Shown here: positions 39,598-64,000 of the stretch, one piece after another | Layout: the number at the start of each line of letters is the position of its first letter | Position numbering within the stretch: the stretch's first letter is position 1 | Position numbers and translations under genes: made by a program | The notes under the pieces: generated by a model | Told to the model about the DNA's origin: nothing | The model's database searches: none | Seen by the model: only the letters and a program-made list of their open reading frames with translations | Origin: Euhalothece natronophila Z-M001 | GTDB taxonomy: Bacteria > Cyanobacteriota > Cyanobacteriia > Cyanobacteriales > Rubidibacteraceae | Length of the DNA stretch: 64,000 bases | Reading direction: 5' to 3' | Assembly: GCF_007904085.1 (NCBI RefSeq) | Contig: NZ_CP042326.1 | Span: 3,038,001-3,102,000 of the forward strand

Positions 39598-39977
39598 ATG
39601 AACTCACTAAGTAGCTTAACTCTTCGCCTGAGAACTAAAGATAATTTAATGGAACTTTTACTAGCGGGTAAAAGTGAAGCATGGAAAATTTGTAAAAATA
39701 AAGAGCAGGAAATATCTAAGGTTGAAATTTTTAACTGGGATGGTTCATTAAAGTTAGAAGAGTGGGAGGCCAGATTGTCTTTCAAATACCTGAACCTCTT
39801 CAAAAGCTAATTAATTATAAAAAACTATTTACCTTTTCTGAAGTTGAATTTGAAATTTATCAAAATAAAACTAAAGAGTTAATGTCAGGTCTAACTTTGA
39901 CGAAAGAAAGTTACACGCGAGAAGAAGTTTTTATGGTTCTAGATTACTTTCTTGATAAAGAAGTTTTTGAAGCGTAG
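39598..39977 (+). pseudogene. Small gene possibly split by a frameshift
   Basis: ATG 39598 opens a 70-codon frame (MNSLSSLTLRLRTKDNLMEL ... KVEIFNWDGSLK) ending at 39810. A second frame, open from 39735 and running to 39977, continues smoothly with RRVGGQIVFQIPEPLQ and a helical end. Joined by a one-base slip near 39745-39762 they would give a soluble protein of about 125 residues. Two overlapping small genes are the alternative. The base composition is AT-rich like the accessory genes that follow. Not recognised. Confidence 0.4.
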
Positions 39978-40149
39978 CAAACCCCAACACAAGTTATAAG
40001 CGATTAGGCTTCGCCTCTGCTTCGCAAACGCTAGAACCTAATATTAATTAGTATTAATTAGTGAAAACATTCTCTCGCAAACTAAGATTTAAATCTGTCT
40101 CTAATAGAGGCTATAATCAAACTTGTTCCCCCGCACAAGAACAGTAGCT

Positions 40150-41502
40150 ATGAATGAAAACATTCCAGAAGAAGCTCTCCAACAAATGGCTCAAGATGAA
40201 AATTGGAACGTACGTTGTAAGGTAGCCTCAAATCCCAACACTCCAGAAGCACTTCTCCAACAACTGGCTCAAGATAAACGTTCGGAGGTACGTCGGGAAG
40301 TAGTCTCTAATCCCAATACTCCAGAAGCACTTCTCCAACAACTTGCTCAAGATGAATCTTCGGAGGTACGTAAGAAAGTAGCCTCAAATCCCAATACTCC
40401 AGAAGCACTTTTCCAACAACTGGCTCAAGATGAAGATTCGAGGGTACGTCTGAAACTAGCCAGAAATCCCAACACTCCAGAAGCACTTCTCCAACAACTA
40501 GGTCAAGATGAAAAATATAGCGTACGTGAGGAAGTAGCCTCAAATTCCAACACTCCAGAAGCACTTCTCCAACAACTGGCTCTAGATGAAGATTCGAGGG
40601 TACGTCTGAAACTAGCCAGAAATCCCAACACTCCAGAAGTACTTCTCCAACAACTAGGTCAAGATGAAGATTCGAGCGTACGTGAGGAAGTAGCCTCAAA
40701 TTCCAACACTTCAGAAGAAGCTCTCCAACAACTAGGTCAAGATGAAAATTATAGCGTACGTCAGGAACTAGCCAGAAATCCCAACACTCCAGAAGCACTC
40801 CTCCAGCAACTACGTAAAGATGAAGATGAAGAATCACTTAATGAAGAGGAAAAATATTTAATTTACTATGCTAAAGAAGGTGATATTAAATCATGGAATC
40901 AATGGAAACGAGACTATGAAGAGGCAAAACAAAATGAAGACGAAGATGAGTATGAACACTTGATGGGTGAGAGAGAGCTGATTGGTTTTCGCAGTGGGCT
41001 TAATTTAAGTGGACTTGATTTAAGTCGTGCTAATTTAAGATGTGTGAACTTAAGTGGGGTCAACTTAAGTAATGCTGATTTATCTTATGCCGATTTAGAA
41101 CAAGTCAATTTAGATAATGCGAATATAGAAGGGGCAAACTTCAGTCTTGCTAACTTAGAAGGGGCTTGGATGAATGATATGAAGGCAAGAGGAGCAGTTT
41201 TTAGTAATGCGAATTTAGAATATGCTGCATTGCATGGTGATTTAGTTGATATTGATTTGAGTGATGCAAAGTTTGGCGGTGACCGCTGTTGGTTACAAGG
41301 TGACTTGACAAATGCCAATTTAGAGGATGCTTACTTAGAAAATGCAAATATGAAAAACAGCATTCTAAAAGGGGCAAATATGATAAACACTAATTTAAGG
41401 AATGCTGATTTAAGTGGTGCTGATTTAGAGGGAGCTGATTTAACAGATGCGAACTTAAAAGGGGCGAATTTAAAAGGTACTATTTTAGAAGAAAACGAAT
41501 AG
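40150..41502 (+). CDS. LRV-like repeat plus pentapeptide-repeat protein
   Basis: 450 aa from ATG 40150. The first 225 residues are eight to nine tandem copies of a 26-residue unit, EALLQQLAQDE--VR--VASNPNTP, of leucine-rich-variant (LRV) type; the DNA repeats with a 78-bp period. A charged stretch (about 235-280) leads to about 30 pentapeptide repeats A(D/N)Lxx (LNLSGLDLSRANLRCVNLSG), which fold as a right-handed quadrilateral beta helix. No signal or membrane segment. Both parts are protein-interaction solenoids. It precedes the GmrSD-like nuclease by 111 bp on the same strand. Confidence 0.85.
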   Translation: MNENIPEEALQQMAQDENWNVRCKVASNPNTPEALLQQLAQDKRSEVRREVVSNPNTPEALLQQLAQDESSEVRKKVASNPNTPEALFQQLAQDEDSRVRLKLARNPNTPEALLQQLGQDEKYSVREEVASNSNTPEALLQQLALDEDSRVRLKLARNPNTPEVLLQQLGQDEDSSVREEVASNSNTSEEALQQLGQDENYSVRQELARNPNTPEALLQQLRKDEDEESLNEEEKYLIYYAKEGDIKSWNQWKRDYEEAKQNEDEDEYEHLMGERELIGFRSGLNLSGLDLSRANLRCVNLSGVNLSNADLSYADLEQVNLDNANIEGANFSLANLEGAWMNDMKARGAVFSNANLEYAALHGDLVDIDLSDAKFGGDRCWLQGDLTNANLEDAYLENANMKNSILKGANMINTNLRNADLSGADLEGADLTDANLKGANLKGTILEENE

Positions 41503-41613
41503 TAGAAGAGTTTTTCAGAAGAGCAGTCAAGCTCAGTTAATTGTGAAGAGACTAACGACAGCACTAAGTTTAAATAGTAAGTGTCAATGCTGTAAATTAA
41601 AGGAGAGTGTATT

Positions 41614-43305
41614 TTGTCAATTCAAGCTACCCAAAAACAACTCAGTGAAATTTTTACTCTTGCTAATTACCAATTCTGGATTCCTGAATATCAGCGTCCC
41701 TATGCTTGGACTCAGGATTTAGCTGGAGAAATGCTGAATGACTTACTGGATGTTTTTCCAGATCAAGAGGAAAGCGACTCTGACTACTTTTTGGGTAGTA
41801 TTATCTTAGTTAAAAAAGAAGGAAAACCGCAAGCTGAAGTTATTGATGGACAACAACGACTGACAACTTTAACTTTGCTGTTAGCAACAATTCGTCACCT
41901 TTTACCACCAAACCATATTAGTTATCAAAAAATCAGCGATCGCCTCAGTGGTAATGATGATATTGGTAATAAAATTATTGGCTTAAAACTTAGAGAACAA
42001 GATGAAGATTTCTTTAACCAGTATGTTAGAAAAGCAGAAGGAATGACAGTTCTTTTAGAGTCAGATGCTGGCTTTAAAACTGATAGCCAAAAGTTACTCC
42101 GCGATAATGCTATCTTTTTAGTTGAGCAACTTACCTCATCCTGTCCAGATCAAACTAACCTAGAGCCTTGGCTTTTACACCTACTCAATAATTTGTTAAA
42201 TCACTGCTATCTTGTTGTCGTTACAACGAGTGATTTTGATACTGCCTATCGAATTTTTTCAACAATTAATACTCGCGGTCTAGAACTACAAATTAATGAT
42301 ATTCTCAAAGCTGAAATTATTGGCGCAATTCCAGACGATAAGCAAAAGAGCGACTATACTCGCATCTGGGAATTAGAAGAGAGTGATTTAGGAAGAGATG
42401 ACTTTCAATTTCTATTTTCTCATATTCATCGCATTCAATTACGGGAACGCCCTAAAGTTGGGTTGCTTTCAGAATATCGTAATCGGATTGAGCCGAAAGA
42501 GTATCCTTGTCAATTTATTGACTCTATTTTGAAACCTTGTTCCGATGCTTTTGAAGTTATCAGAGATGGACAATTTAATTGCGATGATTTAACTCAACAA
42601 TCAGAGATTAATCGGCTATTTGGCTGGCTTAATCGGATTGATAATTCTGATTGGTTACCTCCAGCAATTCACTTTTTAGTTAGTTATCCCGAAAATGCAA
42701 GCAAGGTTCTAAGTTTCTTTACTCAGCTTGAACGTTTAGCCGCAGGTTTAATGATATTACGACGTAATATTAATGAACGAGCAGAACGATATCGGCATTT
42801 ATTAGCAGCAATTGATGAAGGAATTGACACTGCTATTATTAAGTGTCAACAGCTTCTTTCGCAAGAAGAACATCAACAAATTCTCGAAATTTTGGCTGGT
42901 AATATTTATCTACAAAGTCGAATCCGTCTCTATGTCTTGCTTCGATTAGACTCTGCCTTAGCTGAGGGTTCTCTTAGCCCAAGTTTTAATGCCAAATTAA
43001 ACACGATCGAGCACGTTTTACCGCAAACTCTGTCTCCAAGTTGGGAAAAAATGGGTTGGACACCAGAGTTACATGAAAATTGGGTTCACCGCCTCGGAAA
43101 TTTAGTGTTACTTTCTAGAAAAAAGAATGCTGCTGCGGGTAACTATAGTTACGAAAAGAAGAAAACAGCTTATTTCCAAAGCGGAAGTGCAACAGTTTTT
43201 CCAATAACAACGCGAGTTCTTAGTCAGCCTGAATGGACTCCTGCTATTGTGGAATCTAACCAAAGTTATTATTTGAATACCCTTAAGAAAATTTGGAATT
43301 ACTAA
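41614..43305 (+). CDS. GmrSD-type DUF262/DUF1524 nuclease
   Basis: 563 aa from TTG 41614, preceded by AAAGGAGA. The N-terminal DUF262 (ParB/Srx-like) domain has FWIPEYQRPYAW and DGQQRLTTL (78-86), the nucleotide-hydrolysis motif of GmrS. The C-terminal DUF1524 HNH domain, from about residue 465, has IEHVLPQ, then HRLGNLVLLSRKKNAAAGN. Single-chain GmrSD proteins cut DNA carrying modified, often glucosylated, bases and act as type IV restriction against phages. Related domains occur in other defence systems, so the exact substrate is open. No partner modification gene is adjacent. Confidence 0.88.
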   Translation: MSIQATQKQLSEIFTLANYQFWIPEYQRPYAWTQDLAGEMLNDLLDVFPDQEESDSDYFLGSIILVKKEGKPQAEVIDGQQRLTTLTLLLATIRHLLPPNHISYQKISDRLSGNDDIGNKIIGLKLREQDEDFFNQYVRKAEGMTVLLESDAGFKTDSQKLLRDNAIFLVEQLTSSCPDQTNLEPWLLHLLNNLLNHCYLVVVTTSDFDTAYRIFSTINTRGLELQINDILKAEIIGAIPDDKQKSDYTRIWELEESDLGRDDFQFLFSHIHRIQLRERPKVGLLSEYRNRIEPKEYPCQFIDSILKPCSDAFEVIRDGQFNCDDLTQQSEINRLFGWLNRIDNSDWLPPAIHFLVSYPENASKVLSFFTQLERLAAGLMILRRNINERAERYRHLLAAIDEGIDTAIIKCQQLLSQEEHQQILEILAGNIYLQSRIRLYVLLRLDSALAEGSLSPSFNAKLNTIEHVLPQTLSPSWEKMGWTPELHENWVHRLGNLVLLSRKKNAAAGNYSYEKKKTAYFQSGSATVFPITTRVLSQPEWTPAIVESNQSYYLNTLKKIWNY

Positions 43306-46765: not shown

Positions 46766-47896
46766 TTATTTTTCTAATAAAAAGACAAATTCTTGATTAG
46801 GTTTCTCCACTTCTTGTAACCATTGATTTGTCCATTTCATGCTTGCCATGACATTTTTTTTGTAGTCCAAATTAATGACATCTAAAACTTTACCATTCCG
46901 TTTTAAGACTGCATTTAATTCTTCGGCAGTAGCACGACCCCCAGAACTATAGGATAAAATAACCCAATGGGCAGGAACTTTTTGAATCAGCTTTTCAATA
47001 GCTTCTACTGCTAAAAAGCGACCATTCTCATTACATCGAAACTCCTCAAATACTGATCCTGCTAGCTTGTCGGAGGTATCTTGACGACGTTTTGCTTTCC
47101 CAAAGAGGTGAGGCTGATCATATAAGCAAATGGTTTTCCAAAGATGATAATAAGACGCATATCTTACCCGAGACGGTGGCATTTTTTCATTATTTGATCC
47201 ATAGGGAGGATCAAGATAAGCTAAGTCAACGGAAATTTCGGGGATTAATTCAAAGATATCTTGACAAAACACTTGATTTGGTTTTGATGATATAAAAACA
47301 TTTGGCACTTCTAACTGTAAGGTTTTATAAGAACGTGGCGACCAGTTTTTGAGATAAGAGACAAAATGTCCTAATGTATTATCCACTTGATCTAGGGCTA
47401 AAATTAGGCTAGTGAGGGCGACTGCTTTATCAACAGTCGAAAGTTGTAAGGTTTCAATTTCTTCGCGGATAGCATCTAGTTTTCTTGTATTATGAACTTG
47501 CCAAGGCTTTTTTAATCCATCAGCTTGAATTGCACAGCCATGATTAGGGTTTCCCCCATAGTTTTCTGTAAACCAGCCATCTTTGGGAGGAAGGTTATTG
47601 AGATGATCAATTAGTTCTTGATACTCGCTGGGTTGCTTTTGGTTAAGAAGATAACATTGACCAAACACTTTTGACCAAATTGCTAGATCATTACTAATTA
47701 CTTGGTAACCTAATTTGGCAAAGGCTTGAGAAACTCTTGTTGTTCCGGAGAACGCATCTAAAATGGTATGAGCTTCAACTTTTTTTGCTAATTTTAGGAT
47801 ATGGGGTAAGAGTTTTAACTTTGATCCAGTATATTTAATCCCTTCTGTTTTGGGAATCTCAATATCATAATCCTTGAAAAGAGGTAAGGTTTGCAT
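46766..47896 (-). CDS. DNA adenine methyltransferase, D12 class
   Basis: 376 aa. The SAM-binding region is IKYTGSKLKLLPH and TILDAFSGTTRVSQAF; the catalytic motif IV is LAYLDPPYGSNN, as in N6-adenine methyltransferases of the D12 (alpha) class. It protects sites cut by the enzyme encoded just upstream: the two reading frames meet at 47896, where the stop of the nuclease gene and the start of this one overlap. The recognition sequence is not predictable by eye. Confidence 0.88.
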   Translation of the reverse strand: MQTLPLFKDYDIEIPKTEGIKYTGSKLKLLPHILKLAKKVEAHTILDAFSGTTRVSQAFAKLGYQVISNDLAIWSKVFGQCYLLNQKQPSEYQELIDHLNNLPPKDGWFTENYGGNPNHGCAIQADGLKKPWQVHNTRKLDAIREEIETLQLSTVDKAVALTSLILALDQVDNTLGHFVSYLKNWSPRSYKTLQLEVPNVFISSKPNQVFCQDIFELIPEISVDLAYLDPPYGSNNEKMPPSRVRYASYYHLWKTICLYDQPHLFGKAKRRQDTSDKLAGSVFEEFRCNENGRFLAVEAIEKLIQKVPAHWVILSYSSGGRATAEELNAVLKRNGKVLDVINLDYKKNVMASMKWTNQWLQEVEKPNQEFVFLLEK

Positions 47897-48741
47897 TATC
47901 TCTCAATTCCTGATGCTTGTTTCATTCTAATAATGTCTTTCTCTATTATTTCCAAGGCTGATTGATGACCAATATCTGAGGAAACAAGAGCGTGAGATAA
48001 TAGTTTGACAAGAATAAGATTATGTGAGTATTCGATCCATCCATTAGTAATACTATCAAAGTAATTCAAACCATTTTTTGTGTGTGTCCACAAACCACGT
48101 TGTAATGCATTAGCATCACCTTTGCCATATCGAACTTCGCAGATATATTCTTCTGATGCATTATAAAACTTATATACAGGATGTTTTCTTCCAGAGCCTT
48201 TATCATATCTGGTTATTCTTACAGTATCATTAATCGCACGCTCATAGTTAAAAACAAGAATATTACAACGTTGGTTCTTTTCATCATAAATAAGAGGCAA
48301 AACGTTGATATGATAAAAATTGGTAAAAGCAGGATCAGAGAGAATAGCTTGAACTCTCTCCATGTCTATAATGTTATTTCCTTCTTGTTCAAGTCTAGAA
48401 AACATCTGAGACTCTTTATCAGTTGATAGTTGAAGAGGGCCATTACCATAAGCCTTAAGACTTACTGAAAATTCTTCTTGAGTAATTTCATTAGTAATTT
48501 TTATATCTTCTTCTTTAGATTTTTTGCGATACAAATCCTTTCCAACATGGATTGATTTAAAATCGTACATATATTGATTTATAAATTCAGCAATCGCTAT
48601 TTCTGCTAAGTCGCCATGAGTTTTATTTCCCACTAAACGCATTGTAAAAATATTACTTAGTGTAGTAGTTATTAAAGATGGGTACTTTTTAACCAAGAGT
48701 TGAAGTCTATTAGTAAAATCTTTATAAGGGTTATTTGTCAT
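47896..48741 (-). CDS. Type II restriction endonuclease (PD-(D/E)XK-like)
   Basis: 281 aa. I do not recognise the exact family. A possible nuclease core is THGDLAEIAIAEFINQY (helix with Glu), then KEEDIKITN and FSVSLKAYGNG, where Asp/Glu and the Lys follow the PD-(D/E)XK spacing. The tight overlap with a D12 methyltransferase makes a restriction role very likely. Its ATG (48741) lies inside the end of a truncated HepT-like gene, suggesting that the system was inserted there. Confidence 0.7.
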   Translation of the reverse strand: MTNNPYKDFTNRLQLLVKKYPSLITTTLSNIFTMRLVGNKTHGDLAEIAIAEFINQYMYDFKSIHVGKDLYRKKSKEEDIKITNEITQEEFSVSLKAYGNGPLQLSTDKESQMFSRLEQEGNNIIDMERVQAILSDPAFTNFYHINVLPLIYDEKNQRCNILVFNYERAINDTVRITRYDKGSGRKHPVYKFYNASEEYICEVRYGKGDANALQRGLWTHTKNGLNYFDSITNGWIEYSHNLILVKLLSHALVSSDIGHQSALEIIEKDIIRMKQASGIER

Positions 48742-55017: not shown

Positions 55018-57614
55018 GTGCGATTCGTTCAGTCTAAACACACTCTTGTAGTGATGGGGACGACTGGCTTCTGGGGGGTAACCGATTAGGTAGAGTTCGC
55101 ACTTTAATCCCTCCCAGATGACAACTCTGTGACCTTACAGGTGAGAGTGACCAGTGTAGCAATAGCAAAGACCACTGGAAGGGGTAACTCCCATAACAAC
55201 TCAAGTCCTGTCGCCAAGGCACTTGGTTGAAAGCATATTCCCTACGGTAGCGACTAGCCATCAATCCGTAAAGCGGGAATAGAAGCGGAAAGAGGAAGGA
55301 TAGCCTGTGTCCCAGTCCCGTTAGCAAGTCTCTAAGGAGAACAAGGTCTAAGGATACGATTGAATCATCGTTACCGCTAACCAGAGAAATCAGGCTGACT
55401 ACTCTGGGAGTCCCAAAAAAAGGGCAATAGTTGGGGTGACAAGAGGATTCTCGTCTACTTGTCAGTGCCACCCATAAGCTCGGTGAGGAGTATCCCTCCT
55501 AAAGGAGACAAACCAAAGGTCACAGGGAACGAAGTAACTCCCTCGTTTACTCTCAACTCTGGTCGATGAGTGGAGTAGTCAGCTAAGACGCAACATCTAC
55601 TTTCATTTGGTAGGTAGCGGGGGAGAGAGATTGAGTCAGAAGCAAACGCTCTTTGTAACAGAAGAGATAAACTGACGGACTCACGGTTAGATGGATTGTA
55701 GAGGTACAAGTAAGAGTACATAAGTTATGAACACGGACACAAACCGATGTATTAAATGGGGCGACATCAATTGGCATAAGGTCGAGAGAGTCGTCTATAA
55801 GCTCCAAAAGCGCATCTACAAAGCGTCTCGTCGTGGAGATGTCAAAGCAGTTCGCAGACTCCAGAAATTGTTAAACAAGTCTTGGTCGGCTAAGGTATTA
55901 GCGGTGCGTAGAGTTACTCAGGATAATCAGGGCAAGAAGACGGCAGGAGTGGATGGGGTTAAATCCTTGTCCCCAGAAGCACGTATGAAGCTCGTAAATA
56001 ATCTGAAACTGGGTTCAAAGGTCAAACCAACTCGAAGGGTGAGGATTCCCAAGCCTAACGGGGAGGAAAGACCTTTGGGAATACCTACCATGTATGACCG
56101 TGCGCTTCAAGCGTTAGTAAAATTAGCCTTAGAACCTGAATGGGAGGCGGTCTTTGAACCAAATTCCTACGGGTTCCGAGCAGGACGTTCAGCCCATGAT
56201 GCCATTGAAGCAATTTTCGACGCTATTCGGTTCAAACCCAAATACGTGCTTGATGCGGATATATCCAAATGTTTCGACCGTATTAACCACGAAAGACTTC
56301 TGAATAAATTAAATACCTTCCCCACGTTTCGGAGGCAAATCCGAGCGTGGCTCAAGTCAGGGGTAATGGAAGGCAAGAAGTTTTCACCAACGTCTGAGGG
56401 TACGCCACAGGGTGGGGTCGTATCTCCGCTATTGGCTAATATCGCCCTCCACGGTATGGAAAACGAGATTAAATCTATTGCTGGCAGTTTCGATATGAAG
56501 CGTCCGAATGGATATCAATTACCATTAAGGGATAAGAAAGACTCTGTTAGTATAGTCCGATATGCGGATGATTTCGTAATCTTACATAAAGACCTAGCCG
56601 TTGTCCAAAGATGTAAAGAGGTTATCACAGGATGGTTGACAGACATGGGCTTAGAGTTGAAACCGAGCAAAACCAGAATCGCCCACACCCTTGAAAATTA
56701 CGAAAACGAAAAAGCAGGATTTAACTTCTTAGGCTTTAATATCCGCCAATACAAGGTGGGTAAATATACATCAGGAAGGGATTCAAAAGGTCAGATTCTG
56801 GGATTCAAAACGCTCATCACCCCTAGTAAGGAGAGTCAGGAAAGACACTACCGAAGAATTTGTGAGGTGATAGATAAGTATAAGGGACAGTCACAGGCTG
56901 TTCTGATTACTAGACTTAATCCCATAATCAGAGGTTGGTGTAATTACTTCTCTACGAAAGTCAGTCAAAAGGTCTTTTCGAGACTAGACTACCTGACTTT
57001 CTGGAAACTATTTAAGTGGGGTATTAAACGTCATCGAAACAAAGGAAGAAAATGGATAAAGTCCAAATACTTCCGAACGATAGGTGGCGATAAATGGACA
57101 TTTGCTACTACTCCTCGTGAAGGGTCGAATCCTATAGTGTTGATGAAGCACTCACAGACAGCAATCGTCCGCCATGTCAAAGTTAAGGGAGATAAAAGCC
57201 CCTATGACGGCGACTTAATCTATTGGAGTTCAAGAATGGGCAAACACCCTGAGATGCCAAAGCTAACGGCATCGTTGCTCAAAAAGCAGAAAGGGAAATG
57301 CGCTCACTGCGGATTGTTTTTCCGAGATGGAGATTTATTAGAGGTTGACCATATCGTTCCCCGCTCAAAAGGTGGTAAGAACGAGTACAAGAATTATCAA
57401 CTACTCCATCGACATTGCCACGATGAAAAGACCAGAACGGATGGGAGTTACGACCGCGTGGCTACCATCATCCCAAAGGATTACCGATGGGAGAACGATA
57501 TGCTGGTGACGTGCTGATGACAACAGCCGTTTAACTGAGGAGCGGTATGAGGTGAAAGTCTCACGTACCGTTTTGAAGAGCAGTGGAGGGGGTGACCTCT
57601 TCACTGACTTTAAT
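55018..57614 (+). mobile_element. Group II intron, complete, encoding an RT-maturase-HNH protein
   Basis: The 5' end is GTGCGATTCG, the usual GUGYG start. Domain I runs through 55018-55700, the ORF lies in domain IV, and domain V is GAGCGGTATGAGG-TGAAA-GTCTCACGTACCGTT at 57539-57575, followed by the domain VI helix and the 3' end near 57614 (exact base uncertain by one or two). It has inserted between the sugar kinase and pyk, in the convergent spacer; no gene is broken. Confidence 0.9.
55727..57517 (+). CDS. ltrA: Group II intron-encoded protein (RT/maturase/HNH)
   Basis: 596 aa. Reverse transcriptase blocks 1-7 at about 70-330 with GIPTMYDRALQALV, SYGFRAGRSAHDAI, the active site RYADDF (279-282) and GTPQGGVVSPLLANI; maturase domain X at about 340-440 (LNPIIRGWCNYF); C-terminal HNH endonuclease with CAHCG, LEVDHIVPRSKGG and the second Cys/His set HCH. 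It helps the intron splice, cuts the target and primes reverse transcription. Complete and without stops. Inside domain IV of the intron. Confidence 0.95.
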   Translation: MNTDTNRCIKWGDINWHKVERVVYKLQKRIYKASRRGDVKAVRRLQKLLNKSWSAKVLAVRRVTQDNQGKKTAGVDGVKSLSPEARMKLVNNLKLGSKVKPTRRVRIPKPNGEERPLGIPTMYDRALQALVKLALEPEWEAVFEPNSYGFRAGRSAHDAIEAIFDAIRFKPKYVLDADISKCFDRINHERLLNKLNTFPTFRRQIRAWLKSGVMEGKKFSPTSEGTPQGGVVSPLLANIALHGMENEIKSIAGSFDMKRPNGYQLPLRDKKDSVSIVRYADDFVILHKDLAVVQRCKEVITGWLTDMGLELKPSKTRIAHTLENYENEKAGFNFLGFNIRQYKVGKYTSGRDSKGQILGFKTLITPSKESQERHYRRICEVIDKYKGQSQAVLITRLNPIIRGWCNYFSTKVSQKVFSRLDYLTFWKLFKWGIKRHRNKGRKWIKSKYFRTIGGDKWTFATTPREGSNPIVLMKHSQTAIVRHVKVKGDKSPYDGDLIYWSSRMGKHPEMPKLTASLLKKQKGKCAHCGLFFRDGDLLEVDHIVPRSKGGKNEYKNYQLLHRHCHDEKTRTDGSYDRVATIIPKDYRWENDMLVTC

Positions 57615-59866: not shown

Positions 59867-60192
59867 AGCGACCCTCCAATGGTACTTAGCTGTTGTTTAT
59901 GATACTAGGCGATTCAATATTGACCCAGTCGCTCTATTGTCGTCTATTAGGGGGGCAACTTGTCAATGCTGAGAAATATTACGCTGTTTACTTGTTGAAA
60001 TAAAAGGAAACGGAAAAATGGGGGATGCAGATGATTATTTGTCATAATACTTAATAAAAACTCAGTGTGTACCCAGCGTTTTGTTCCCCCGTTAAAATGA
60101 AGTGAGGGTTTTTCTCGCCTTGGATGAGAAGGTTCTCAGCAAAGGAAAATAGAGAACTAAAATAAGAATTGCAAATCTATTTTGATTTTGGA
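59867..60192. other. Intergenic spacer without recognised features
   Basis: 326 bp between divergent genes. No open frame, tRNA, hairpin terminator or repeat stands out. It must hold the promoters of both neighbours. Confidence 0.6.
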
Positions 60193-61263
60193 ATGTTTGA
60201 GGAAATTGCCAGCGCGATCGCGCAACAAGACTACAATACTGCTCATCAACTCCTAAATACCCTCAAACAAAAATATCGGGATCACCCTTGGTTACTATTT
60301 TACACGGCACAAATTGAGCAAGCCAACGGAAACATTGAAACCGCTAGAAATACCTATATTTCAGTGCTTCAAAGCAGTAGCAATCGGAAACTACTGTGGC
60401 AAGCCCGAGAAGCCCTCCGTCACCTCGAAAGCAGTCCAAGGCAACAGCAGAACTACCAAAGCCAAGAAGCCCTCGGGGAAGACGAGTTAGCGGTTTTTGT
60501 GTTAAGCGCTGTTCCCACCGAGGAAAAGAAAGTAGCTGCCCAAACTCTTGCTACCACCTTTCAAATAGATCCCTATAATGCCCGCTTACAACTTCCTAGT
60601 CGAGGATGGCGACTCTTTCGGAGTGGGGGAAGGCAAGAACTCCTCCATTACAGTAAAGTGTTACAAGAAGCCAATATTCCCTGTTTTTATCTTCCCCTTG
60701 ATACTCTAGAGAGTCTTTATGTTTTTCAAGTACAATACCTTCGTTGTGAAGGAGAGACGGTAACTGCTCGTTGTTCTCTCAGTAATGGTCAAGAGGGGAG
60801 TTTAACGTTTCCATGGTCAGAAATTAGCGCGAAAGTTACAGGGCGAGTTCCCATTTTTGAAGAAATTCTTACTAAAAATAATCGGGGAAAAAAACAACGA
60901 AAAACCGAAATTTTAGATTATGTCCAGCTTTATGATCTCCATCTGCCAAAACGACGAGCAATTCTTCGCTTGTGTGATCAAAAATATCAATTTCAACACA
61001 GTTTCCCGTTAACAGAACAGATTCAGAAAGGGGAAACTTTACGTCGCAATTGGTTACAGTTATTACAGTATTTAGAAGAACAATTACCTAATGTTATTAC
61101 TTGGAAAGAGTTTACGATATTTGGTGAAAGCGCGATCGCGTTTCCTCAATTACTCAGTGGAATTTCTCCAAAAATTAATTTACAACGACGCTATGAAACC
61201 GTTTGGGATGCGGCTTTCCATCTCTATAGTAGTTTAGTCTTTTATCAAGCTGAATCCTCCTGA
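60193..61263 (+). CDS. Conserved cyanobacterial TPR-like protein
   Basis: 356 aa from ATG 60193 (MFEEIASAIAQQDYN); an in-frame TTG eight codons earlier is possible. Residues 1-90 are TPR-like helices (HPWLLFYTAQIEQANGNIETARNTY). The middle (130-200) has AVFVLSAVPTEEKKVAAQTLATTF and the rest is alpha/beta of no known family. It is followed by the DEAH helicase gene after 8 bp; the pair looks like a conserved operon. Confidence 0.7.
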   Translation: MFEEIASAIAQQDYNTAHQLLNTLKQKYRDHPWLLFYTAQIEQANGNIETARNTYISVLQSSSNRKLLWQAREALRHLESSPRQQQNYQSQEALGEDELAVFVLSAVPTEEKKVAAQTLATTFQIDPYNARLQLPSRGWRLFRSGGRQELLHYSKVLQEANIPCFYLPLDTLESLYVFQVQYLRCEGETVTARCSLSNGQEGSLTFPWSEISAKVTGRVPIFEEILTKNNRGKKQRKTEILDYVQLYDLHLPKRRAILRLCDQKYQFQHSFPLTEQIQKGETLRRNWLQLLQYLEEQLPNVITWKEFTIFGESAIAFPQLLSGISPKINLQRRYETVWDAAFHLYSSLVFYQAESS

Positions 61264-61271
61264 TAATAATT

Positions 61272-62385
61272 ATGGCTTTTGAGTTTTTAGAAATGGGATT
61301 AGATGCAATTGAGTGGGAAGTTTTAGCCCAACAATATGATTCCCAACAGCAAAAAGTTCGGGAATCTCAAGGAAACTATTACTATCAAGATAAGGGAGTT
61401 CCCTGTTTTCCCGCTTCTCTAGCTTTAAGAGATTATCAGCGTCAAGCTGTGGCTAATTGGTTTCGGCATCGGGGACGGGGAATGCTGAAAATGGCAACGG
61501 GTAGTGGGAAAACCATTACCGCTCTTGCTATTGCGACAGAACTTTATGAGAAAATTGGCTTACAGGTTTTGCTGGTGGTTTGTCCCTATCGGCATTTAGT
61601 AACGCAATGGGCGCGAGAAGGTCAGCGTTTTAATTTACAGCCTCTTTTAGCCTTTGAAAATGTCCAACAATGGCAACCCAAATTATCTAGCCAGCTTTAT
61701 CAAGTCACTCAAGGCAATCAAAACTTTTTAACGGTTATTACCACTAATGTTACCTTTATCAGCGAGGGATTTCAGTCGCAACTCAGTTATTTTCCTGAAA
61801 AAACCTTAATTGTTGGTGATGAGGCCCATCATTTAGGTTCACCGCGTTTAGTAGAGAGTTTACCGAAAACCATTGGCTTACGCTTAGGATTATCAGCAAC
61901 ACCAGAACGCTATTTTGATGAAACAGGAACTGAGGCCGTTTTTAACTATTTTGGAGAGGTTTTAAAGCCTGAGTTTACTTTAAGAGACGCGATCGCGCAA
62001 GGGGCTTTAGTTCCCTATTACTATTATCCTGTCTTTGTCCCCTTAACTGAGTCTGAGGCACTCGCTTATGCCAAACTAACCAAACGCATTGGCTGGGCGT
62101 TAGCCGATGATCCCAATCTGAAAAGCAATGAAACAGTGACGAATTTACTGATGCAGCGATCGCGCTTAGTGGGAACTGCGGAAAATAAACTCCCCACCCT
62201 AGCCCAACTCATGTCATCCCGTCTTAACACCAGTCATACCTTATTCTACTGTGGCGATGGCTCTCTTGATGGGATGTCTCGCCAAGTTAGCGCCGTCACT
62301 CGGATGTTAGGAAAAGAATTGGGATTTCGGGTTCACAGTTACACCGCCGAAACTCCCCTCACAGAAAGGGAAACTTTGCGCCAAC
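61272..62385 (+). CDS. DEAH-box helicase, 5' exon interrupted by a group II intron
   Basis: 371 codons and one base, then the intron begins at 62386. Superfamily 2 motifs: the Q-like ALRDYQRQAVANW, Walker A MATGSGKT, DEAH in VGDEAHHLG, SATPERY (motif III), and the start of domain 2 (TLFYCGDGS, FRVHSYTAETPLTERE). Motifs V and VI are missing, and the stop six codons into the intron is not natural. The rest of the gene should lie beyond 64000 after the intron. Accurate splicing would restore it. Confidence 0.85.
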
Positions 62386-64000
62386 GTGCGATTCGTTTAG
62401 TCTAAACACGCTCAAAGAGTGATGGGGACGACTAGCTTCTGGTGAGGTAACCTGCAAGGGTTGAGTTCGCACTTTAAGTCCCACACCAGATGACAACTCT
62501 ATAACCTTACAGGTGAGAGTGACCAATGTAGCGACAGCTAAGACCATTGGAAGGCATAAAGCCATAAAAACTCAAGTCCTGTCGCTGAGGCGCTCAGTTG
62601 AAAGCATTTTCCCCACGGTAGCGAGTGGTCTTCAATCCGTGAAGCGGGAATAAAAGCGTTAAAAGGCTGTGGTTTTGGTAACCTGGACCCCCAGCCGCGT
62701 GAGCAGGTCTCTACGGAGAACATGGACTAAGGGTATGACAGAATCATCGATATAAAGGACCAGGGAAATCAGGTTGCCCTGGATGAGCCAAAAGGCCAAG
62801 GTCTGGTGACAGATGTGTGTTGGAACATCTGTCAGCGCCACCAAATGGACCCGGTGAATAATACCCCTCCTAAAGGAGACGAACCAATGGTTATAGGGAA
62901 CGAAGTAACTCTTTTGCATACTCTTAGTTCTGGTCGATGAGCTAAGTAGTCAACCAAGACGCAAAATCTGCTTTCATTTGGCAGGTAGCAAGAGAGAGAG
63001 ATTGGGTCAGAAGCGAATGCCTTGAGTAATATCAGGGATATGCTGACGGACTCACGATTAGATGGAATGTAGAGGTACGAGTAGAGGTACAAATGTTATG
63101 AACACGGGCAACAAACCGATGTATGAATGGGGCGATATCAATTGGCGTAAAGTCGAGCGTGTCGTCTATAAGCTTCAAAAGCGCATCTACAAAGCGTCTC
63201 TTCGTGGAGATGTCAAGACAGTTCGCAGACTCCAGAAACTTTTAGTTAAGTCCTGGTCAGCTAAAGTGTTAGCGGTGCGTAGAGTTACTCAGGATAATAT
63301 GGGCAAAAAGACGGCAGGAGTGGATGGGGTTAAATCCTTGTCCCCAGAAGCGCGTATGAAGCTCGTGAATCAGATGGACTTGGGTTCAAAGGTTAAGCCA
63401 GCTCGGAGGGTGAAAATTCCGAAGCCTAACGGGGAAATAAGACCTTTGGGAATACCTACCATGTATGACCGTGCACTTCAGGCGTTAGTCAAGCTGGCGC
63501 TAGAGCCAGAATGGGAGGCGGTTTTTGAACCGAACTCTTATGGATTTCGGCCAGGACGTTCAGCCCATGATGCTATAACAGCAATCTTCTTGGCCATCAA
63601 GCAAAGACCAAAATACGTGCTCGATGCGGACATCTCAAAATGTTTCGACCGGATCGATCACGAGAGACTTCTGGACAAACTAAACACCTTCCCCAAGTTT
63701 CGGAGACAAATCCGTGCTTGGCTCAAAGCTGGGGTAATGGAAGGCAAGAAGTTCTCTGCAACATCTAAGGGTACACCGCAGGGTGGAGTCATTTCTCCAC
63801 TCTTGGCGAATATAGCCCTCCACGGCATGGAAAATGAGATTAAATCTGTCGCCCGAGGTTTCGACATGAGACGTAAAAATGGGGGTCAGGTAAGTTGGCA
63901 AACAAAAGTAGGCTCTGTAAGCGTTATACGTTATGCAGATGATTTTGTCGTCTTACACAAAGACCTTGCCGCTGTCCAGAGATGTAAAGAGGTTTTGGAG
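62386..64000 (+). mobile_element. Group II intron, second copy, runs off the window
   Basis: It starts GTGCGATTCG like the copy at 55018 and follows it through domain I with many substitutions and several differing loops. Its encoded protein begins at 63098. The 3' end is not in the window. It lies within the coding part of the helicase gene. Confidence 0.9.
63098..64000 (+). CDS. ltrA: Group II intron-encoded protein, N-terminal part (partial)
   Basis: An uninterrupted frame of 301 codons from ATG 63098 to the end of the window. It begins MNTGNKPMYEWGDINW and shares most residues with the first intron protein, including YGFRPGRSAHDAI, GTPQGGVISPLLANI and RYADDFV. The RT domain is intact as far as seen; maturase and HNH domains would follow past the edge. 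Differences are spread over the length, so this is a diverged sister rather than a fresh duplicate. Confidence 0.92.
   Translation, partial: MNTGNKPMYEWGDINWRKVERVVYKLQKRIYKASLRGDVKTVRRLQKLLVKSWSAKVLAVRRVTQDNMGKKTAGVDGVKSLSPEARMKLVNQMDLGSKVKPARRVKIPKPNGEIRPLGIPTMYDRALQALVKLALEPEWEAVFEPNSYGFRPGRSAHDAITAIFLAIKQRPKYVLDADISKCFDRIDHERLLDKLNTFPKFRRQIRAWLKAGVMEGKKFSATSKGTPQGGVISPLLANIALHGMENEIKSVARGFDMRRKNGGQVSWQTKVGSVSVIRYADDFVVLHKDLAAVQRCKEVLE

Follow-up and report, generated by a model that had tools for sequence, protein, structure and literature searches.

An LRV and pentapeptide-repeat protein upstream of a DUF262/DUF1524 nuclease in Euhalothece natronophila, a possible exchangeable partner

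The window, a stretch of 64,000 nucleotides from the genome of Euhalothece natronophila Z-M001, encodes a repeat protein and, directly downstream, a DUF262/DUF1524 nuclease. The pair and its immediate surroundings have the following features.

39598..39810, + strand: remnant of a small domain (NDOM), 70 aa, with about 50 aa of the ~95-aa domain (tblastn, profile)
40088..40117, + strand: weak promoter-like site before the repeat gene (best forward match)
40150..41502, + strand: LRV and pentapeptide-repeat (PPR) protein, 450 aa (Pfam LRV and Pentapeptide, AlphaFold2, Foldseek)
40159..40824, + strand: LRV array of 78-bp (26-aa) units, protein residues 4-225 (TRF, unit list)
40825..41013, + strand: acidic linker, 63 residues (226-288), net charge -11, low model confidence
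41014..41490, + strand: pentapeptide-repeat solenoid, protein residues 289-447 (Pfam, model, Foldseek)
41614..43305, + strand: DUF262/DUF1524 (GmrSD_N and GmrSD_C) nuclease, 563 aa (Pfam, PADLOC, motifs, model)

The repeat gene starts at the ATG at 40150, within an open frame that runs from a TTG at 40123. The preliminary description had read LRV-like 26-residue units and pentapeptide repeats in one chain, and Pfam finds both in the 450-aa protein (LRV 2.4e-50, Pentapeptide 5.4e-42), with PF01816 (LRV) in tandem over its cut-off at 165.9 bits in 8 stretches. The single-sequence AlphaFold2 model has an overall pLDDT of 76.9 and a pTM of 0.47; in blocks of ten residues the pLDDT is about 77-92 over the LRV units and about 45-90 over the PPR half. 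In Foldseek searches the helical half matches HEAT proteins and PDB 1lrv (TM 0.61, 29% identity), with which it shares the LRV superhelix. We take 1lrv to be the Azotobacter LRV protein, and we know of no PPR half or nuclease neighbour for it. The PPR half, with a net charge of -13 over 159 residues, has the fold of HetL, MfpA and Qnr, and also matches QnrB and AlbG, but in the window protein this fold is fused to an LRV array. Against NCBIfam it scores under the curated cut-off of every family listed (Qnr 40.1 of 240 bits, MfpA 44.8 of 360 bits).

No other single chain with both repeat types was found in 28 sampled LRV loci, many of which are cut by short flanks. The two occur as neighbouring genes in genome G203. 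Among plasmids, no place covers 80% of the query with such a chain, and the best-ranked place is the LRV protein of pSYSA, which lies beside its own nuclease. The phage collection gave only short matches among the 10 of 29 listed, several of them to PPR genes.

The nuclease starts at a TTG behind AAAGGAG, and a single chain holds both GmrSD_N (3.2e-36; 125.8 bits, cut-off 33.2) and GmrSD_C (1.1e-25; 90.6 bits, cut-off 23), with the DGQQR, FxxxNxRG, EHxLP, GN and KN motifs kept. Its model is confident (pLDDT 90.2, pTM 0.82), and the nearest solved structure is DndI (PDB 9jfl), matched over the whole chain (Foldseek TM 0.62, E 2.1e-14, 17% identity). SspE (TM 0.31-0.44) and BrxU (TM 0.33-0.35) are weaker matches, although SspE, GmrSD and BrxU all have the same two domains and the DGQQR and HNH motifs. 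The earlier label "GmrSD-type" thus suits the Pfam domains but not the structure, which is nearer to DndI and SspE than to the GmrSD-family BrxU. DndI, from the IscS-DndBCDE-DndI system of Salmonella, is likewise a single-chain DUF262 and DUF1524 HNH protein of similar length. It is co-transcribed with dndFGH beside dndBCDE, according to the portion of PMC11662687 available, whereas the window nuclease has a solenoid as its neighbour and the dnd genes are unlinked; no dndFGH operon of this type beside dndBCDE was found at the window locus.

The repeat gene ends 111 bp before the nuclease on the same strand, as previously described. The site listing holds no forward promoter-like or terminator-like site in this gap, and the two genes may be transcribed together. 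Promoter-like matches across the region number 11, against 11.9 expected by chance. The repeat gene (0.267) and the nuclease (0.263) have similarly low GC3 values, each close to the bottom tenth among 106 genes.

The LRV array consists of nine units at an exact 26-residue spacing, of which unit 9 stops after about 14 residues. TRF reports 8.5 copies of 78 bp, and a two-unit period of 156 bp scores higher, which fits the closest unit pairs, 4/6 (96%) and 5/7 (94%). The units had been called nearly identical, which is too strong: DNA identity among the first eight is 74-96% (mean 82%), and only the pairs 4/6 and 5/7 look like recent copies. Most amino-acid differences between units fall at positions 15, 16, 17, 20 and 21, where pN is 0.47 against 0.125 at the other 21 positions, the five having been picked from these data. 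The same contrast is present in the five other LRV arrays of the six compared. In the model, positions 16, 17, 20 and 21 lie within the second predicted helix and position 15 just ahead of it. Positive selection over the whole unit was not significant (pN 0.196 versus pS 0.111; codon bootstrap P 0.087), and the excess of pN over pS in this array is suggestive only. At the protein level the array is closest to the host's own LRV cluster (mean unit identity 0.55-0.61, versus 0.45 to pSYSA). A recent copy from that cluster is unsupported, with a GC3 of 0.27 for the array versus 0.37-0.39 for the host's LRV triplet, which is unlike the repeat gene and nuclease pair in this respect.

Relatives of the nuclease were searched for in 388 genomes of the class (26 match at 1e-40), 388 of the order (39 at 1e-60), three families, plasmids and a genome-contig collection. 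Within the family to which the window belongs, the nuclease is present at 1e-20 in 3 of 9 genomes, the window's included, and the other two matches are weak (28-31% identity). The contig collection gave no match to the single protein; an alignment query gave matches, of which the best 80 were kept. The family, class and order genomes together with pSYSA supplied 64 nuclease places, 52 of them with wide flanks (six with less than 1 kb upstream), in which genes were called mechanically as open frames of at least 70 aa; one 50-aa antisense frame over the PPR gene of G493 was left out. Plasmid flanks were taken for H1-H6 of 141 plasmid records.

Solenoid genes recur upstream of the nuclease on its own strand. 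Besides the window gene, at 111 bp, they comprise an NDOM-PPR fusion in G346 (127 bp), an LRV gene on pSYSA (145 bp) and a helicase with a PPR tail in G439 (92 bp), whose nuclease is a more distant homologue than the other solenoid-linked ones. Synechocystis 6714 has a broken LRV gene 470 bp upstream, and G503 and G493 have PPR genes 591 and 700 bp upstream with a DUF2442 or DUF2442-like gene between. Pfam confirms five partners (pSYSA LRV; G503, G493 and G346 PPR; G439 helicase and PPR), and HMMs built without the positive sequences return the same seven matches (PPR 5, LRV 3, the window protein in both).

Across the 52 loci, 7 of 57 near-upstream same-strand genes encode solenoids. None of the 465 other flank genes does (Fisher 1.3e-7), and the control, 20 regularly spaced stretches from four of the surveyed genomes, has 5 among 367 genes (2.6e-4); these P values treat genes as independent, and the loci are phylogenetically related. 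Counting only the four immediate and intact neighbours (window, G346, pSYSA and G439) leaves 4/57, with P 1.3e-4 against the flanks and 0.022 against the control stretches. For PPR alone the comparison is 5/57 near-upstream to 5/367 control genes (P 0.0055), and the PPR background is probably higher in G346 and G493 than in the control, since these genomes have 104 and 114 PPR matches and the control genomes 63-92 each.

The remaining called flank genes of the 52 loci include no solenoid, and neither do eight further nuclease places with 1.5-kb flanks. The genome-contig loci (78 of the best 80) have solenoids only at the two already counted, G346 and G493; the 74 loci beyond four known clade members, some of which repeat cyanobacteria of the first set, have none. 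From the LRV side, 28 of 388 class genomes carry LRV genes, and none of the 28 sampled loci, with flanks up to 1.5 kb, lies beside this nuclease. The literature searched gave no description of a DUF262-PPR or GmrSD-PPR pair. A term search of the text at hand of PMC10952713 met no mention of a pentapeptide or repeat partner, and PMC4619093, in the part available, reports TPR_15 as enriched near GmrSD homologues.

In a tree of 49 nucleases, from which the fragments L108, L109 and L112 had been removed beforehand, 11 cyanobacterial enzymes form one clade (100/100 support), and the DGQQR and HNH motif residues are kept in all 11. The closest branch to the window nuclease holds the two Synechocystis enzymes of pSYSA and pSYLA as its sisters (99/94), both with LRV genes upstream. 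Three of the other eight members have PPR partners, which brings the solenoid-linked members to six; for the remaining five, two of which are on ~5-kb contigs, the flanks retrieved hold no solenoid. Beyond this clade the link all but disappears. The expected linkage in other genomes is therefore borne out in part: solenoids recur upstream of close homologues, but 5/11 clade members and the 74 contig loci lack them, so that the partner is optional and clade-specific. The solenoid label needs five changes on the tree (shuffled mean 6.6; as few in 21 of 500 shuffles), so gains, losses or swaps have been frequent, and its clustering is only moderate.

One natural loss of repeats is present in Synechocystis 6714. 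Relative to the 6803 protein, its LRV gene covers residues 1-226 and 522-638, which follow directly on each other in different frames. The repeat block is thus mostly lost, and the nuclease keeps all its motifs. A collapsed assembly could also produce such a gap, but the change of frame speaks against a simple collapse. The preliminary description had suggested that repeat number could change specificity and should be compared between strains. A block of repeats was lost between 6803 and 6714, while four 6803-type plasmid records share the same LRV protein accession and show no difference of unit number.

That different repeat proteins recur in this slot points to a partner that can be exchanged, and not to a neighbour by chance. 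We tentatively favour an optional two-gene defence module, in which a nuclease capable of standing alone is directed or gated by an exchangeable solenoid encoded upstream. The nuclease would be a single-chain restriction enzyme of the DndI/SspE/GmrSD type, and the solenoid its accessory partner. The LRV superhelix would provide a constant scaffold with five variable positions per unit, and this superhelix, the PPR rod or both would most likely bind a phage or host ligand, or the DNA-binding face of the enzyme, and thereby direct or gate it. A recognition or gating role is the best fit, as the slot beside the same nuclease is occupied by solenoids of two unrelated families. The regulator or sensor role proposed in the preliminary description may apply. 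Such a pair could act against phage. The cyanobacterial conflict systems of PMC7159879 likewise join exchangeable superstructure-forming repeats, such as pentapeptide and HEAT repeats, to a core that stays constant, but in the portion of that text available they are vWA, caspase and TRADD-N systems, and DUF262 is absent from it.

It is also possible, though doubtful, that the co-location is passive: PPR and LRV genes are frequent and mobile, and may gather by chance in the same defence or plasmid neighbourhoods with no functional link to the nuclease. The near absence of the link beyond the clade agrees with this, as do the five clade members with no solenoid nearby and the modest excess of PPR alone over the control, and small genes (DUF2442 and the 95-aa NDOM) gather at these loci as well. 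Passive gathering does not readily account for the difference between the near-upstream slot (7/57) and the other flank genes (0/465), or for a slot common to two solenoid families in sister lineages.

In a further reading, which we consider unlikely, the nuclease would recognise phosphorothioate (PT) as DndI or SspE do, together with a dnd locus to which it is not linked, and the solenoid would be secondary. The closest solved structures are DndI and then SspE, and the best PADLOC model is "Orf5" (5.6e-232), which by accession falls between the entries for Dnd and those for Pbe/Ssp, an order that suggests that it groups with those models. Residues P24-Y26-Q27 of the window enzyme are at the place of the PT patch P23-Y25-Q26 of DndI, as matched by motif rather than superposition, but PxYQR is invariant in 38/38 aligned homologues from many phyla and is therefore not diagnostic of PT reading. 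DndC is over its cut-off in 8 of 10 clade genomes, for which the chance is 0.055 at a base rate of 0.5 and 0.38 at a base rate of 0.7, and a ninth has a partial match at a contig end. In 7 of these 8 genomes, however, DndC is far off or on another contig (on contig C1 it is at 0.55 Mb and the nuclease at 3.08 Mb), with a distance of 11 kb in G346, and Synechocystis 6714, which has a sister of the window nuclease, lacks it. The window's own genome carries DndC and DndD at one locus.

L326 2871-11952: phosphorothioation locus (DndC, DndD/PbeC, SspC-like, part of DndA/SspA)

This locus looks partly broken, as its SspC-like protein has 722 aa (profile 1104) and only the C-terminal half of DndA/SspA is present. 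PMC8569181, in the part available, describes dnd as vertically inherited in Cyanobacteriales, which also speaks against the PT reading, and reports dnd modification genes in cyanobacteria with the dndFGH restriction genes absent, a gap on which a DndI-like enzyme would bear.

It is improbable that the solenoid inhibits the nuclease or serves as its antitoxin, for example through a PPR rod that mimics DNA. MfpA and Qnr mimic DNA toward gyrase; the PPR fold of the window protein matches MfpA, QnrB and AlbG, and the proteins are acidic (net charge -13 for the window PPR half, -61 in G346 and -54 in G493). The Synechocystis partners, however, are LRV only. An antitoxin would always be present and intact, whereas the solenoid was not found nearby in 5/11 clade members and is broken in 6714 beside a nuclease with all motifs intact. 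A partner that is optional and open to loss is unlikely to be an obligatory antitoxin, although an antitoxin may lie elsewhere in these genomes. An insertion in slr7023, by accession order probably the LRV gene of pSYSA, gave a segregated strain, as stated in the available text of PMC8272380, although the cassette could also silence the nuclease.

Under the favoured reading of an optional module, a more specific version is also improbable: an enzyme of the DndI/SspE kind, perhaps an unlinked reader of orphan dnd, would be given its target or trigger by a solenoid subunit (LRV, pentapeptide or both) that recombines and can be exchanged. If true, solenoid swaps or repeat changes would retune an otherwise constant nuclease. 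DUF262/DUF1524 enzymes are usually read as self-contained, and a clade in which their repeat proteins can be exchanged would offer a simple model of a fixed nuclease gaining new specificity. One LRV/nuclease pair (WP_011153692.1 and WP_011153693.1) is on pSYSA of the laboratory strain Synechocystis PCC 6803, where the idea is testable.

The NDOM remnant upstream of the pair (tblastn 62% over 50 aa, E 2e-13; profile E 3e-20) belongs to a domain that is fused to the PPR protein in G346. NDOM is present in 25/388 genomes, in most cases as a separate gene encoding about 92-136 aa. The members scanned match nothing in Pfam or PHROG, and nothing significantly in the PDB. Eight order genomes hold both NDOM and a nuclease homologue, and in six of them (G000, G346, G199, G493, G533 and G705, but not G402 and G439) the two are no more than 6 kb apart; G000 and G199 have remnants. 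As a third fixed component NDOM holds only partly, given this 6/8 and a profile built from G346 and G533, which were chosen for nuclease proximity. NDOM loci besides the window remnant are the following.

L080 4217-4546: NDOM
L140 4821-5144: NDOM
L143 10086-10394: NDOM

DUF2442 genes recur just upstream of clade nucleases (L142, L143, L144 and L140), with Pfam confirmation in L142 only and the L140 copy one gene further up. A small gene that resembles DUF4160 accompanies DUF2442 in L140 and L144.

Elsewhere in the window, 46766-48741 (- strand) encodes a type II restriction-modification pair, a D12 adenine methyltransferase and a PADLOC REase_II (2.1e-132), about 3.5 kb from the nuclease. A group II intron maturase with RVT, GIIM and HNH domains is at 55727-57517 (+ strand), and a ResIII/SNF2-type helicase at 61272-62405 (+ strand) follows a TPR-like protein at 60169-61263.

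The loci L100 (6999-11603), L106 and L107 show three tandem LRV genes whose neighbours, an AAA ATPase gene and a small gene, look like ycf46 and ycf35, and, in two genomes of the same genus, a single LRV gene in a similar place. On the 25-kb contig C5 the same LRV gene occurs twice, 14,721 bp apart (L104 4544-5314 and L105 6265-7035), as either a dimer or an assembly repeat.
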